Assembly: GCA_031081715.1 (NCBI GenBank)
Contig: JAVHMA010000013.1
Location: 1-64,000, forward strand
DNA: 64,000 nucleotides
Direction: 5' to 3'
From: Armatimonadota bacterium
GTDB taxonomy: Bacteria; Sysuimicrobiota; Sysuimicrobiia; Sysuimicrobiales; Humicultoraceae
Made by a program: the position numbers and the translations under genes. Shown in pieces: positions 48,950 to 57,640 of this stretch. Under the pieces are notes generated by a model. The model was not told where the DNA came from. It searched no databases and saw only the letters and a program-made list of their open reading frames with translations. How positions within the stretch are numbered: the first letter of the stretch is position 1; every line of letters begins with the position of its first letter.

Positions 48950-50008
48950 ATGGCCGCCCGGACAAGCCAAAGAGGCGACTACATCACCCTGGCGCTTGTG
49001 GCCTGGACCCTGGCGGGTGCCCTGTCGGACATCTGGGCGCACGGGCAGGGCCTGCCCGAGACGTTCTTCAATCCCTACCACGCGGTCTTCTACTCGGGCT
49101 ACCTGGTGACCGCGGCGTGGTTGCTGTGGCCAGCGCTGGCGACCGGACGGGGCGGCCGGGATCCGCTCGGGACCGGGCGGCCTGGCTATGGGCCCGCGCA
49201 GGTTGGAGTCGGGATCTTCGCCGTCGGCGGGCTCGGCGACGCGATCTGGCATTCCGCCTTCGGCATCGAGCGCGGCATCGACATCTTCACCAGCCCACCG
49301 CACATCCTGCTCTTCGCGGGCCTGGCGCTCATGGCCTCGGGCCCGCTGTACGCGGCGTGGATCGCGCCGGGGCCCCAGCGGCCGGCCCTGCGCGCCCTGC
49401 TCCCGGCCCTGCTGTCGGCCGCGATGGTCCTGCTGGTGGTGCACCTGGCGACGCTCCACATGTGGGGGCCGACCAGCTCCCGGTTCATGAGCGCGCTGGC
49501 CATCGAGCGGATCACACGCGAGTTCGTGGCGACCGAGCGCGCCGCGGTCCTGGTGCGTGAGATCGCCACGCAACGGGCGGTCGCCAACCTGCTCCTGACC
49601 ACGCTCACGCTGCTGGCGCCGACGCTCCTGCTGATCCACCGCTGGCGCCTGCCGGCCGGCAGTCTCACGGTGGTGGTCGGCCTCGTGACCTGGCTCATGG
49701 ACGGCGTCACCGGCATGTTCTTCCCGTGGATCGCGCTTGCCGGGCTGCTCGGCGCGGCGGCGGGCGATGGGTTGGTCCGAGCGCTCGCGCCGGCCCCCAC
49801 CCGACCGAAGGCGTTCCGAACCTTCGCGGTGGTGTTCCCCATGACGTACTGGGGCCTCTACCTCCTCGCGGTGCACCTGCACTGGGGCGTCGCGTGGACG
49901 CCCGCGCTGTGGGCCGGCGTCGTCCTGTGGACGGGTGCCGTCGGGTTCGGGGCCAGCCTCCTGGTGTTGCCGCCGACCGGCGCAGCGCTCGTGGAGCCTG
50001 CGCGCTAG
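48950..50008 (+). CDS. Polytopic membrane protein, unknown function
   Basis: A 352-residue protein with about nine predicted membrane helices. Conserved-looking polar features inside the membrane region are LSDIWAHGQGLPETFFNPYHAVFYSG near the start, GDAIWHSAFGIERGIDIFTSPPHIL and WLMDGVTGMFFPW. The repeated His in helices (SDIWAH, YHAVFYSG, AIWHS, PHILL) may bind a metal or haem. I do not recognise a named family. ATG at 48950 follows GACGCCACG without a strong ribosome-binding site. It stands alone, convergent with the PlsY fusion gene. Confidence 0.75.
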   Translation: MAARTSQRGDYITLALVAWTLAGALSDIWAHGQGLPETFFNPYHAVFYSGYLVTAAWLLWPALATGRGGRDPLGTGRPGYGPAQVGVGIFAVGGLGDAIWHSAFGIERGIDIFTSPPHILLFAGLALMASGPLYAAWIAPGPQRPALRALLPALLSAAMVLLVVHLATLHMWGPTSSRFMSALAIERITREFVATERAAVLVREIATQRAVANLLLTTLTLLAPTLLLIHRWRLPAGSLTVVVGLVTWLMDGVTGMFFPWIALAGLLGAAAGDGLVRALAPAPTRPKAFRTFAVVFPMTYWGLYLLAVHLHWGVAWTPALWAGVVLWTGAVGFGASLLVLPPTGAALVEPAR

Positions 50009-50028: not shown

Positions 50029-51771
50029 TCAGGAGCCCCTGCCGGCGAGTACCGTCTCGGCGGCGCGGGCGCCGGTGGCGACCTCGAACCCGAGCGCCTC
50101 GGCCCGCTCCACAAAGTAGTCCACGTGCTCCGACCGCGTCCGGTCGCCCAGGCTCACCCGGTCGTAGGCACCATCCAGCGCGATGATCACGGTCTCGGCC
50201 AGGCAGGCCGGCACGAGCCCCGGGCCGTACCGACTGTAGTCGAAGTAGACCGGCACCTCGGGCCGACCCGGCAGCCGCACCACGCCGCCTGGTGTGACCT
50301 CGACCCCAGGCACCGCCGCGACCGACGGGTCGACGTCGGGCGGCCGGCCGAGATCGAAGACCAGCGCGCCCGGCCGGACGTGCTGCGGGAACACGACCGG
50401 TCGCGGATGCGAGGTGGCGGTGAAGATGACGTCGGCCTCGCGCAGCAGATCGTAGGCGGTCGTCGCCTCGACGACCGCGCCGGGCGCGCGCCGGACCAGC
50501 AGCTCGCGCGAGCGGTCCAGCCGGCCCTGGTCGGTGCCCACCATGATGAGCCGGCCCACGTGGCCCAGCAACGCGCGGCAGATGCCGAAGCCGACCACAC
50601 CGTTCGCGCCCACGACCGCGGCCGTGGCCCGGGCCGGGTCGCCGCCGCGGGCGCGCAGCCGCTCCAGAATGAACGGCACCGCGCGCTTCACGGTACCGGC
50701 GGTATACGCGCCGCCGTTGGTAATCGCGATCGGCGACTGCGCCTGGACGTCGATCCCCTTGTTGCCGACCACCGACCAGTACGCGCCCAGACCCAACACC
50801 GTCGCGCCCAGGCTCGCGGCCAGGTGCGCGGCCTCGACCGCGCGGCGTACCGCGAGCGCCGGGTGCGACCGGATCTGATCGGGCAGCATGGCGACCCCGA
50901 TCAGGTATACGCGCGCGGCACGGCCGTCGGCCGTGGTGGTGCGCAGCTCGTCCACCTTCATCGGCCGCAGGAAGGGCGCCAGCCACCGCACCAGCCCGTC
51001 GGGCAGCAGGCCCAGGCGCCGCAGGGCCGCGAGGCCGGCGAACCGGTCCACTAGCCAGATGTAGTCCACGGTCATCGGGTGGATCAGGAACGCGCAGGCT
51101 GCCTCGCGGTCGCCGAGCGACGGGAGCGGGAGCCCGTCCCCCAGCCGCGGCTCCACGCCGTCGGCGATGCGCAGCAGGTGCTCCTTGTGGTTCCAGATCG
51201 TGATCAGGGCGTAGGCGACGGACAGCCACATCACCGCCGGCCTCGTGCCGGTGACGGCCAGGGTGAGCGGCAGCGCGACCGCGCCGCCCACGGCGCCGAG
51301 CGACAGGTAGCCCCAGCGGCCGGTGATCAGGCGCGGGCCGGCGAGCAGGACGCCGCCGACCGCGACCGGCACGATCGTCGCGTACCACGCCGCGACATCG
51401 AGCGCCGCCAGGGCGATCAGCGCGCCGACCCCCACGATCACGCCCTTCATCCGCGTGTACGCGCGCGCCACCAGGAGCCAGTACGGCGAGTACACGTGGC
51501 CGAGGACCACGCCCGCGGCGGACGCGGCGACGGCCCAGTCACCCGGGGCGATGCGCGCCGCGAGCAGCACCCCGAGCGCGCCCTTCGCCAGGTCGGCGGC
51601 GGTGACCACCACCAGCGTGGGGACGCCCGCTGCGCGCGCGACGGTCAGCAGCCCGAGGTTATGGGGCGAGAGCCGGTGGATGTCGACCCCGCGCAGGCGC
51701 CGCGCGGCCAGGTAGCCGGTGGGGAGGCTGCCAACGAGGAGCGCGACGAGGACCGCCAGGGGAGCCGCCAT
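50029..51771 (-). CDS. Fusion: PlsY-like glycerol-3-phosphate acyltransferase + acyl-ACP reductase-like (AAR/COG5322) domain
   Basis: A 580-residue protein in one uninterrupted frame. Residues 1-210 form a PlsY-like membrane domain (GSLPTGYLAARRLRGVDIHR, DLAKGALGVLLAARI, NHKEHLLRIADGVEPRLGDG), but the usual GSGN and KGGKG loops are altered (SPHN, RMKGV). Residues about 225-575 resemble cyanobacterial-type long-chain acyl-ACP reductases: LGLGAYWSVVGNKG, TNGGAYTAGTVK, a Rossmann loop VVGANGVVGFGICR at 386-399, and PACLAETVIIALDG. The region where those enzymes have the catalytic Cys reads VYFDYSRYG, so reductase activity is doubtful. It probably acts in membrane-lipid synthesis. Confidence 0.75.
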   Translation of the reverse strand: MAAPLAVLVALLVGSLPTGYLAARRLRGVDIHRLSPHNLGLLTVARAAGVPTLVVVTAADLAKGALGVLLAARIAPGDWAVAASAAGVVLGHVYSPYWLLVARAYTRMKGVIVGVGALIALAALDVAAWYATIVPVAVGGVLLAGPRLITGRWGYLSLGAVGGAVALPLTLAVTGTRPAVMWLSVAYALITIWNHKEHLLRIADGVEPRLGDGLPLPSLGDREAACAFLIHPMTVDYIWLVDRFAGLAALRRLGLLPDGLVRWLAPFLRPMKVDELRTTTADGRAARVYLIGVAMLPDQIRSHPALAVRRAVEAAHLAASLGATVLGLGAYWSVVGNKGIDVQAQSPIAITNGGAYTAGTVKRAVPFILERLRARGGDPARATAAVVGANGVVGFGICRALLGHVGRLIMVGTDQGRLDRSRELLVRRAPGAVVEATTAYDLLREADVIFTATSHPRPVVFPQHVRPGALVFDLGRPPDVDPSVAAVPGVEVTPGGVVRLPGRPEVPVYFDYSRYGPGLVPACLAETVIIALDGAYDRVSLGDRTRSEHVDYFVERAEALGFEVATGARAAETVLAGRGS

Positions 51772-51844
51772 CCCCCTAAAGATACACCACCGGGGCCGCG
51801 CCTCAAGGGACTGGCCCGCGGCCCACGGGGCCGGTCGCCCCAGG

Positions 51845-52474
51845 CTACTTGGTGCCGAAGAGCCGGTCGCCCGCGTCGCCCAACCCGGGCACGATGTAGC
51901 CGTGCGGCGTCAGGTGGCTGTCCACCGCGGCGGTGTAGATGTCCACGTCGGGATGCGCGCCGTGCACGCGGGCGACCCCCTCCGGCGCCGAGATGATGGC
52001 CATGACCCGGATCGTACGGCAGCCGGCGCGTTTGAGGATGTCGATCGCCGCCACCGTTGAGCCGCCGGTCGCCAGCATCGGATCGAGGATCATCGCCTCG
52101 CGCTCGGCGACATCGGGGGGGAGCTTTGTGAAGTAGCTCACCGGTTCGAGCGTGTCGTGGTCGCGATAGATGCCGATGTGACCCACGCGGGCCGTGGGGA
52201 TCAGGCGCGTGATGCCCGACTCCATGGCCAGGCCCGCGCGCAGGATCGGGATGACCGCGATCTCCTGGCCCGCGATGGTCCAGCCCGTCGTGGCGGCCAG
52301 CGGCGTCTCCACCGAGATCTCCCGCACCGGGTGCGCGCGGGTCGCCTCGAACGCCATCAGCATGGCGAGCTCCTCGGTGAGCTCGCGGAACTCCTTGTGG
52401 CCGGTGCGTTTGTCGCGCAGGATCGTGAGCTTGTGGCGAATGAGGGGATGGTCGAAGACGTGCACGGTGGGCAT
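51845..52474 (-). CDS. upp: Uracil phosphoribosyltransferase
   Basis: A 209-residue PRTase. [19 protein letters not shown] at the N-terminus, [12 protein letters not shown], the PRPP loop [11 protein letters not shown] and the C-terminal [18 protein letters not shown] are the Upp signatures. It makes UMP from uracil and PRPP. I chose ATG 52474 behind AGGAGG. Divergent from glyA; the 181-bp gap between (52475-52655) has no recognisable gene or known riboswitch motif. Confidence 0.96.
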
Positions 52475-52655
52475 GCGCGGCGCCTCCTGTGGGGGGATCG
52501 CGGGGCCGTTCGCTACCGGCGAAGGGCATCCCTCCCCAACGGACCTGCGGGGGCAGGCCGCCGGTCCATCGATCGCCTCGCGGGACCCGGAAGGCACGGG
52601 CCAGGCGCGTACCGAAGCACCCGACAGTCCCTGCGCACTCACGGAGGTCCGCGTC

Positions 52656-53984
<1,329 letters not shown>

Positions 53985-54090
53985 CGCGCCTGTGCCCACG
54001 CGCCGCCCCAGGGCGAGCCCCGAGATCTGACGGCGTGAGACGCTGGCTGGCCGCACCACCCGGCCGCGGGACGGGTCGGCTGGGCGTCGC

Positions 54091-54540
54091 CTACTTCCTC
54101 TGCTCGCGCTCGTACCGGGCGATCTTCTCGATGCGCGGGATGTGCCGGCCGCCCTCGAACGGCGTCGTCAGGAAGGTGCGCACGATCTCCTTCGCCACCT
54201 CCGACCCGACGATCCGCGCGCCCAGCGCGATCATGTTCGCGTCGTTGTGGAAGCGCGCGAGCCTCGCGGTGGTGACGTCGTGCACCACGGCGCACCGGAT
54301 CCCGAGCACCTTGTTCGCCGCCATCGCCTCGCCGTTGCCGGTGCCGCCGAAGATGATGCCGCGGTCGGCCTCGCCGCGCGAGACGACCTCGGCCGCCGGG
54401 ATGCAATAGTCGGGGTAGTCCACCGGCTCGGGCGAGGTGGTCCCGACGTCGCGGACCTCGTGACCGAGCTCGAGCAACAGCCGCGCGATCTCGGCTTTCA
54501 GCAGCACGCCCGCGTGGTCGCCGCCGATCACGACGCGCAC
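54091..54540 (-). CDS. rpiB: Ribose-5-phosphate isomerase B
   Basis: A 149-residue RpiB/LacAB-family enzyme. GGDHAG at the N-terminus, YPDYCIPAAEVV (active-site Cys region) and IFGGTGNGEAMAANKVLGIR are typical. It interconverts ribose-5-P and ribulose-5-P. Ends the minus-strand rho-to-rpiB run, four bases after the YrdC-like gene. Confidence 0.95.
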   Translation of the reverse strand: MRVVIGGDHAGVLLKAEIARLLLELGHEVRDVGTTSPEPVDYPDYCIPAAEVVSRGEADRGIIFGGTGNGEAMAANKVLGIRCAVVHDVTTARLARFHNDANMIALGARIVGSEVAKEIVRTFLTTPFEGGRHIPRIEKIARYEREQRK

Positions 54541-54544
54541 GGCG

Positions 54545-55024
54545 TCACCTCGAGGCGGCCAGGTCCCGAGCGATGGGGCCGGCGTCGAGCACTAGATCGA
54601 CGGCGTCACCCACGACGAAGACCACGTGCTGCGCGGACGGTGCCGGGCGGCCCCCCGCCCGCGCCGGCGCCGCGGCCAGCGGCACGCCGGCGGCCTCCAT
54701 GAGCGCCAGCGCCACGGGATGGTGCAGGGGCTGGGGGGCGACCGCGAGCTGCGCCGCCTGCTCCGGGGTGGCCGCGAACCACAGGAGGGCGTCGTAGGCC
54801 ACGCCGGTGAGCGCGCGCAGCCGGGCCACCGCCGGCGCGTGCAGCGCGTTGCAGGCGACCACGTACCCGCGGTCGGTGGGCAGCACGACGAGCCCGCCGC
54901 CGCGCAGCACCTCCACCGCCCGCCGCGGCGCCGTGCCGTTGGTCGGGTCCACGCGGTACATCGTGACCGGCCGCGGCTCGCGGTCCACCGCGGTCTGGAA
55001 GGTGAGCCCGTAGTAGCCGCTCAC
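54545..55024 (-). CDS. Shortened YrdC/Sua5-like protein (degenerate TsaC homologue)
   Basis: A 159-residue protein in the position where tsaC/ywlC normally lies (prmC - ywlC - rpiB). The beginning is recognisable (VEVLRGGGLVVLPTDRGYVVACN) and a late HPVALALMEAAGVPLAA fits GLRVPxHPxAxALL. However, the KxR nucleotide-binding signature after the first strand-helix is missing (TGVAYDALLW), the middle strand with PGPLT is absent, and the protein is 40-50 residues short. GTG start overlaps the prmC stop (GTGA). It is probably not active in t6A synthesis unless another copy supplies that function. Confidence 0.7.
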   Translation of the reverse strand: MSGYYGLTFQTAVDREPRPVTMYRVDPTNGTAPRRAVEVLRGGGLVVLPTDRGYVVACNALHAPAVARLRALTGVAYDALLWFAATPEQAAQLAVAPQPLHHPVALALMEAAGVPLAAAPARAGGRPAPSAQHVVFVVGDAVDLVLDAGPIARDLAASR

Positions 55025-55952
55025 TCGCGCCTCCGTCCTGGGGCCGTAGGGACCCGGGCCGCGACGACCCGGTCCCAACCGAGCCCGTCGCGCCGCACCA
55101 GGGGAGCGTCGAACGCCCCCGAGCGATGAAAGAGTTCGATGACGCGCGGCCCCTGGCCTGCCGCGGCCTCCATCACGAGCCAGCCGCCAGGCGGCAGCAC
55201 CGCGGGCGCGCCCGCGATGAGTCGCGCGTGCACGCTCTCGCCGAACCCGGGCGCGACGACCGCGATCCGCGGCTCGAAGTCGCGGATCTCCCTCGGGAGG
55301 CCCGCGGCGTCCTCGGGCGCGACGTAGGGCGGATTGCAGGCGATCAGGTCCGGCCGCGCGCCGGCGGCGACCAGCGGCTCGAGCAGGTCGCCCTCCAGGA
55401 AGCGCACGCGCTCGGCGACCCCGTGCCGGGCGGCGTTCGCGCGGGCCACCTCCAGCGCCTCGGGCGCCAGGTCGGTGGCCAGGACCCGGGCGTCGGGCCG
55501 AGCGACCGCCACGCTGATCGCGATCGCGCCGCTGCCAGTGCCGACGTCCGCGACGAGCGGCCCGGGGGTGTCGCGGAGCGCCTCGAGCACGGTCTCCACC
55601 AGGATCTCGGTTTCCGGCCGGGGGATGAGCACGCGCTCGTCCACCAGGAACCCCAGGCCCATGAACTCCCGCCGGCCCACGATGTAGGCGAGCGGCCGGC
55701 CGGTCGCGCGCTCGTCGAGCAGTGCCTCGTAGCGCGCCCAGGCGTCGGGCCCGACCGATCGGCCCCACGCGACGTAGAGCTGGGTGCGCGTCAGGTTCAG
55801 GGCGTGGCGCAGCAGCACCTCGGCGGTGATAGCCGCCTCGGGCACGCCGAGGGCCTCCAGGTGCTCGCGGCCCGCGATCCAGGCCTCGCCGATCGTCGCC
55901 GGCGGGGCCGGCGAGGCGCGCCCGCCGCGGCGCCGGCCGTGGGTCGGCGGGC

Positions 55953-55956
<4 letters not shown>
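55021..55956 (-). CDS. prmC: Peptide chain release factor N5-glutamine methyltransferase
   Basis: A 311-residue class I methyltransferase. The N-terminal helical domain ([21 protein letters not shown]) binds the release factor, [16 protein letters not shown] is motif I, and [12 protein letters not shown] carries the NPPY catalytic motif. It methylates the GGQ glutamine of RF1/RF2. Overlaps prfA by four bases, the usual pairing. Confidence 0.95.
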
Positions 55957-57020
<1,064 letters not shown>

Positions 57021-57048
57021 CGTGGTCTCCATCGTGCTCACCGGACCG

Positions 57049-57054
57049 ATTATA
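57049..57054 (-). promoter_or_regulatory. -10 element for prfA embedded in the tdk stop
   Basis: A perfect TATAAT (57054-57049) containing the tdk stop codon TAA. No good -35. It would allow prfA-prmC to be transcribed apart from rpmE-tdk. Confidence 0.4.
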
Positions 57055-57640
57055 GCACCGCGCCTCCGCCGGGCCGGCCGGGCACGTCGTGACAGCGACG
57101 GCAGCGCGCCTCGTAGGCCTCCTGCGCGCCGACCAGGATGACCGGGTCGGTGTAGCGCGCGGGTCGGCCGTCCACCAGCCGCTGCGTGCGGGTCGCGGGC
57201 GCGCCGCAGACGACGCAAATCGCCGCGAGTTTGGTGACGTGCTCCGCGACGGCGAGCAACTCCGGCATGGGGCCGAACGGCTCGCCGCGGAAGTCGGTGT
57301 CCAGGCCAGCGAGGATCACGCGCACCCCGCGGCGGGCTAGGGCCGCCGCTACCGCGGCGATGCCCGCGTCGAGGAACTGCGCCTCGTCAACGGCCACGAC
57401 CTCGGTGGCGGGGTCGACCAGTCGGGCGATCTCGTGGCTGGCGGCCACGGCTACGGCCTCGACGCGCGCGCCGTCGTGCGACGTCACCGACTCCACCGCG
57501 TACCGGTCGTCAAGCGCATGCTTGAAGACCTGCACACGCTGGCGCGCGATCTGGGCGCGTCGGATGCGGCGGATCAGCTCCTCGGTCTTGCCGCTGAACA
57601 TGCTGCCGCAGATGACCTCGATGCCGCCGCCATGGTCCAT
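57050..57640 (-). CDS. tdk: Thymidine kinase (type II)
   Basis: A 196-residue enzyme. P-loop [12 protein letters not shown] near residue 13, DEAQFLD as the catalytic Glu region, and a zinc ribbon (CVVCG and CRRC). It phosphorylates thymidine in salvage. ATG 57640 behind GGGGGAGG. Located between rpmE and prfA, a conserved order. Confidence 0.96.

Follow-up and report, generated by a model that had tools for sequence, protein, structure and literature searches.

The window analysed here, a 64,000-nucleotide stretch of DNA from an Armatimonadota bacterium, carries a gene in which a PlsY-like membrane domain is joined to an acyl-thioester reductase domain of the acyl-ACP reductase (AAR) type (Table 1). 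Sequence comparisons suggest a once-bifunctional PlsY-AAR whose main activity here may be the reduction of fatty-acyl thioesters by a membrane-anchored protein, in place of the standalone AAR, a reading to which we give about an even chance. No route to phospholipids is more widespread among bacteria than PlsX/PlsY, and the physical attachment of PlsY to a reductase of the aldehyde-forming type points to a branch of lipid metabolism that has yet to be studied. In one group of genomes, the fusion contributes the only PlsY found. In the other, to which the window belongs, the PlsY site is degenerate, and plsX, plsY, and the standalone AAR have disappeared from five genomes. This pattern raises the question of how phospholipid synthesis starts in organisms that seem to lack PlsX and a working PlsY, and what role aldehydes play.

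Table 1. Position and character of the fusion gene and its parts in the window.
Feature	Position	Strand	Basis or remark
Fusion gene, 580 aa, PlsY-like then AAR-like thioester reductase domain	50029..51771	-	single open reading frame
PlsY-like membrane domain, residues 1-210	51142..51771	-	PF02660, 72.7 bits; 5xj5 fold
PlsY motif 1, altered, SPHNLGLLTVAR for GSGNVGATNVTR	51634..51669	-	Ser35 to Pro36, Thr41 to Leu42, Arg45 kept as Arg46
PlsY motif 2 (acyl-phosphate loop), 5-residue insertion	51436..51465	-	Gly102-Gly103 to Arg-Met, Lys104 kept as Lys109
PlsY motif 3	51157..51195	-	His177 kept as His195, Asn180 to His198
Linker and start of reductase N-terminal region, residues 211-265, invariant CAF..H	50977..51141	-	alignment
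AAR/PigE-like acyl-thioester reductase domain, residues 266-565	50077..50976	-	NCBIfam, Foldseek
Dinucleotide-binding loop GANGVVG, residues 388-394, counterpart of AAR 162-GATGDIG-168	50590..50610	-	alignment; PMC7089970
Catalytic cysteine codon, Cys523 = AAR C294	50203..50205	-	alignment

The original prediction had placed one reading frame over this interval and described it as a fusion of PlsY and AAR. The frame is uninterrupted in the open reading frame check, begins with an ATG at 51771, and lies on the minus strand, a point to be added to that description. The fusion itself stands, with PF02660 on residues 10-202 (Pfam; curated cut-off 24.1 bits, E 4.9e-20) and AAR-type models over residues ~270-570. 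Both halves lie far under the cut-offs of the corresponding NCBIfam models, namely the PlsY equivalog TIGR00023 (59.2 bits, cut-off 137.2) and AcACP_reductase, TIGR04058 (46.8 bits, E 2.4e-12, cut-off 449.7). The best NCBIfam match of the reductase half is PigE (88.7 bits, E 3.1e-25). The best PDB sequence matches of the fusion are 4ppm, AAR 6jzq, and PlsY 5xj5; the first is titled Aminotransferase, and the part of it matched by the fusion is the N-terminal, PigE-type reductase. A Pfam search found no transaminase domain in the fusion reading frame. An AF2 model of the window fusion (mean pLDDT 82.4, pTM 0.76) has AAR 6jzu, the TAD domain of the carmabin pathway, and PlsY as its best PDB fold matches. 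With Foldseek, the reductase half matches 6jzu at E 3.2e-19 (TM 0.75 by target), and the PlsY half matches 5xj5 at TM 0.82 by target length.

A stop between the halves, which the original prediction had considered, does not occur. The same fusion is encoded uninterrupted in 16 genomes that fall into two groups: 10 of the 43 genomes of the window's phylum, the window's genome (G000) included, and a second group of six (G061, G065, G066, G067, G081, and G094) among the 121 genomes searched around G061. Because genomes of both groups encode it without an internal stop, an assembly join is ruled out. A scan of named genomes returned four fusion loci in MAGs labelled Candidatus Nitrosymbiomonas, bacterium, Armatimonadetes, and Actinomycetota. 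Judged by location and score, three of these repeat the fusions of G010, G009, and G003, in that order, and the Actinomycetota-labelled fourth is that of G061. The genes upp, glyA, rpiB, prmC, and prfA flank the fusion (window 50029-57218) in an order conserved in G002, G005, G008, and G010, which indicates a stable fusion site in the window's family. As the original prediction had supposed, the literature searched gave no description of a PlsY-AAR fusion. A 352-aa protein, which Pfam did not match even with E values as high as 1, adjoins the fusion on the opposite strand (window 48950-50008, +).

In the C-terminal half, Shikimate_DH (residues 380-492) is the sole Pfam match above cut-off, and the domain could accordingly be read as a shikimate- or quinate-dehydrogenase-like enzyme unrelated to acyl reduction. 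However, the best sequence and fold matches over the whole domain are AARs and thioester reductases, and the acyl-accepting cysteine is in place. Shikimate dehydrogenase alone is thus ruled out as the family, and we give such a function hardly any weight. The assignment to AAR by both sequence and fold agrees with the original prediction, which erred in reporting the catalytic cysteine as missing. Cys523, located within the CLAETVI segment highlighted in that prediction, aligns with C294 of S. elongatus AAR, on which the acyl-enzyme is formed (PMC7089970). In the phmmer alignment, PACLAETVI of the fusion falls on FACFAEAML of AAR, and the cysteine is numbered 294 by counting back from AAR residue 315. 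It is invariant in a 14-row alignment of eight window-lineage and six second-group fusions, so its loss can be dismissed; standalone relatives and PigE carry the equivalent cysteine.

The AAR counterpart from cyanobacteria (6JZQ) shares the fold, the dinucleotide loop, the cysteine, and Arg193 with the window fusion, whereas identity is ~23% in the fold alignment and no PlsY domain is attached. Of the NADPH 2'-phosphate pocket of AAR (R189, R193, and R314), only R193 is kept; the alignment places Thr at R189 and Asp at R314. The thioester reductase of PtTamH uses NADH (PMC9594044). Given the altered pocket and this precedent, NADH is probably the cofactor of the reductase half, a guess that appears reasonable by analogy. 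PigE and PtTamH likewise contain a reductase of this kind, with loop and cysteine present, inside a multidomain enzyme; their partner is a transaminase, whereas that of the fusion is a membrane acyltransferase fold. Closer relatives are the standalone AAR-like genes found beside coaX, c1, and greA in the same phylum, which share ~31-38% identity over the whole domain, the cysteine, and the loop. These differ in being unfused, in mostly keeping the first arginine of the NADPH pocket, and in standing a long branch apart.

The reductase half looks intact. In our preferred reading, the soluble domain would take an acyl group onto Cys523 from acyl-ACP, a product of the type II fatty acid synthesis pathway retained in the window's genome. 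Hydride from a nicotinamide cofactor, probably NADH, would then reduce the acyl-Cys523, so that a fatty aldehyde would form at the membrane. We infer this course from AAR and PtTamH, for which acyl transfer from ACP to cysteine, hydride transfer, and aldehyde release are the expected steps (PMC7089970, PMC9594044). The PlsY-derived domain, which retains its fold together with His92, Ser142, Lys104, and His177, would serve as the membrane anchor. This proposal draws on the conserved Cys523, GxxGxxG loop, and AAR fold, and on the stronger constraint acting on the AAR half. The fused AAR domains group together in a single clade (100/100), but a very long branch (2.23) separates them from the standalone AARs, and hence the reaction may have changed.

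The PlsY half presents a different picture. In PlsY, Ser35, Arg45, Lys104, and Asn180 clamp the phosphate of glycerol-3-phosphate (G3P), Ser142 and His177 bind its 2-OH, and His92 and Thr41 bind the acyl-phosphate; alanine mutants of the clamp lose >92% of activity and N180H nearly all (PMC5700162). The alignment shows Pro36, Arg46, Lys109, and His198 at the clamp positions of the window fusion, two of the four being changed. At the acyl-phosphate site, His92 is kept, Thr41 is replaced by Leu, and the GG of the GGKGVA loop by RM; Ser142 and His177 are retained as Ser and His. The altered loops of the original prediction are thereby borne out, with GSGN turned into SPHN and the GGKG loop into RMKG with its insertion. 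Overall, the protein keeps the 7-helix fold of A. aeolicus PlsY (5XJ5), Lys104, and Arg45, but departs from it in the residues above, in loop insertions, and in the attached reductase. Given the loss or change of Ser35, Thr41, Asn180, and the two glycines that precede Lys104, the window PlsY half has probably ceased to make lysophosphatidic acid by the usual reaction of acyl-phosphate with G3P.

Similar changes recur across the window-lineage fusions, eight of which are included in the alignment. None of the eight has kept Ser35, which is replaced by Pro or Ala; six have His in place of Asn180, and Arg45 survives in G000 only. His92 and Ser142 are invariant and His177 is mostly kept. In the six second-group fusions, Ser35, Arg45, Lys104, Asn180, Ser142, His177, and His92 are all kept, and position 41 is Thr or Ser. 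The predicted structures agree, as supporting evidence only: the motif 1 and motif 2 loops reach pLDDT 56 and 52 in the window model (below 50 at residues 103-108 of the motif 2 loop) versus 77-80 and 72 in the model of G061, which has an intact PlsY site, each model being built from an input alignment of 14 rows.

A recurrent altered motif, S[PA][HY]N[LV]G, hints at a changed acceptor. On this basis, and given that an aldehyde-forming domain is physically linked to a membrane acyl-transfer fold, the PlsY-like half could join the aldehyde from the AAR half to glycerol-phosphate or another acceptor, yielding an ether, plasmalogen- or alcohol-type lipid, in line with the unusual lipid suggested in the original prediction. 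We know of no such chemistry for PlsY folds, however, and no neighbouring gene identified points to ether lipids; we regard this outcome as distinctly improbable.

Sequence divergence sets the two halves apart. Between G000 and G002, the AAR halves are 72% identical versus 52% for the PlsY halves, and between G000 and G005 the values are 73% and 48%. The mean ratio of PlsY to AAR distance is 2.08 (1.66-2.44) in the window lineage versus 1.34 (1.02-2.42) in the group with intact sites, with overlapping ranges. In the window lineage, PlsY, with its degenerate site, is therefore changing at roughly double the rate of the AAR half. Among G002, G008, and G010, dN/dS is 0.12-0.26 for the PlsY half versus 0.04-0.10 for the AAR half, indicating that the former is relaxed but no pseudogene. 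It remains under purifying selection in these three genomes and keeps invariant residues, an observation that speaks against our preferred, mainly reductive reading.

Gene content provides a second line of evidence. Five fusion-bearing genomes (G000, G003, G005, G014, and G015) show no PlsX match, no standalone AAR match, and no canonical PlsY; absences weigh less in G003 (78% complete) and G015 (72% complete), and G014 has a divergent PlsY. The original prediction had raised the matter of a separate canonical plsY in the window's genome, and none was found there. Losses can be located at conserved sites. plsX is gone from the yceD-fabH interval in G000, G005, and G014 and present in G002, G008, and G020 (yceD and FabH identified by Pfam), and plsY lies beside der in G002 and is gone there in G000 and G005. 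The c1-greA interval contains an AAR in G002, nothing in G000, G003, and G015, and an Era-like GTPase in G005, whereas a solute-binding protein follows c1 in G014; AAR is absent beside c1 in both of the latter genomes. This gene order supports real deletion, and incomplete assembly is ruled out as the only cause of the absences, since the conserved neighbours are found on a single contig from which the gene itself is missing. The standalone AAR is absent in 5 of 10 fusion-bearing members of the phylum versus 2 of the 33 others, counts that ignore shared ancestry. Its disappearance from a conserved site in five genomes suggests that the fusion may have taken over its role. Yet fusion does not force the loss, as G002, G008, G009, and G010 carry the degenerate fusion alongside PlsX, canonical PlsY, and AAR.

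The marker c1 is a gene of ~300 aa (MKxVVSVSLGSS...; L030 8516-9427 in G002, G000:C35:21319-22215) without a match in Pfam, NCBIfam, or PDB. Its place, in other groups as well as in most of the phylum members examined, is directly before the standalone AAR. Of the 43 genomes of the phylum, 42 have c1, and it is retained where AAR is lost. Separately, G018 and G021 (L105) have no PlsX found, keep PlsY, and lack the fusion; the yceD-fabH site is empty in G018.

Searches of G000 and G005 gave no PF02660 protein besides the fusion and no PlsX. This also counts against our preferred reading, since a dead PlsY half would leave both genomes without a recognised maker of lysophosphatidic acid. No G3P acyltransferase was found in either genome other than possibly the fusion; both retain FabH and two PF01553 (PlsC-type) acyltransferases. 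Pattern searches for gpsA and other lipid genes gave nothing usable in 0.4 Mb of G005. G3P may be acylated in these genomes by a PlsC-type or unrecognised enzyme, or else, though we think it rather unlikely, by the fusion in a new way. The protein would then be a PlsX-independent G3P acyltransferase, in which the AAR-type cysteine hands its acyl group to the remodelled PlsY pocket without acyl-phosphate. The local loss of plsX and plsY, the retained FabH and PlsC-type genes, the conservation of His92, Ser142, and most His177, and the purifying selection on the PlsY half fit this proposal. Against it stand the loss of the phosphate clamp (Ser35, Asn180, and mostly Arg45), the four genomes that keep PlsX and canonical PlsY beside the same degenerate fusion, and the persistence of PlsX in five of the six genomes where the fused PlsY is intact. 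An unrecognised acyltransferase may also act elsewhere. We consider the proposal doubtful. A broader form, a one-protein entry into lipids that bypasses acyl-phosphate by passing the cysteine-loaded acyl group, as acyl or aldehyde, to an acceptor in the remodelled pocket, is likewise tentative and on the improbable side. If true, such a bypass would explain the joint loss of plsX, plsY, and standalone AAR in fusion-only genomes.

The second group shares the architecture, 43-49% identity, and the AAR clade with the window fusion and differs in its intact PlsY site. The fusion is the sole PF02660 match in each of the six genomes, the standalone AAR is absent in all six, and PlsX is matched in five, G066 having two partial pieces only. 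Of three second-group fusions tested against TIGR00023 (NCBIfam), two score above the cut-off and the third just below. Full bifunctionality, with ordinary PlsY activity and reduction competing for one acyl pool, thus fits this group: active-site residues are intact or conservatively changed, no other PF02660 protein is found, and scores lie above or near the cut-off. Extending it to the window lineage appears quite unlikely; Arg45 and Lys104 are retained in the window protein, but Ser35 has become Pro, Thr41 Leu, and Asn180 His, and no PlsX was found to supply acyl-phosphate. The channelling between ACP, phosphate, and G3P put forward in the original prediction is accordingly plausible for the second group, whose sole PlsY found is the fused one with its intact site. 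In the window lineage it is unlikely, given the damaged clamp and the failure to find PlsX in the window's genome. A mainly reductive role remains our preferred reading there.

Fused PlsYs and five unfused relatives are set apart from canonical PlsYs (100/99). Within this insertion-bearing set, the best tree does not unite the fused PlsYs in a single clade; fission, or else a second event, may have occurred. G001 sits on a very long branch of the PlsY tree, and its placement is unsure. L045 and L046 (G001 and G014) represent a third, divergent PlsY type on a long branch, with a motif like NGNIGGMNTMRN and no Ser35. The unfused PlsYs sharing the motif 2 insertion of the fusions are L168-L172 (G172, G071, G087, G146, and G173), and in G172 this unfused protein is the only PF02660 protein found.
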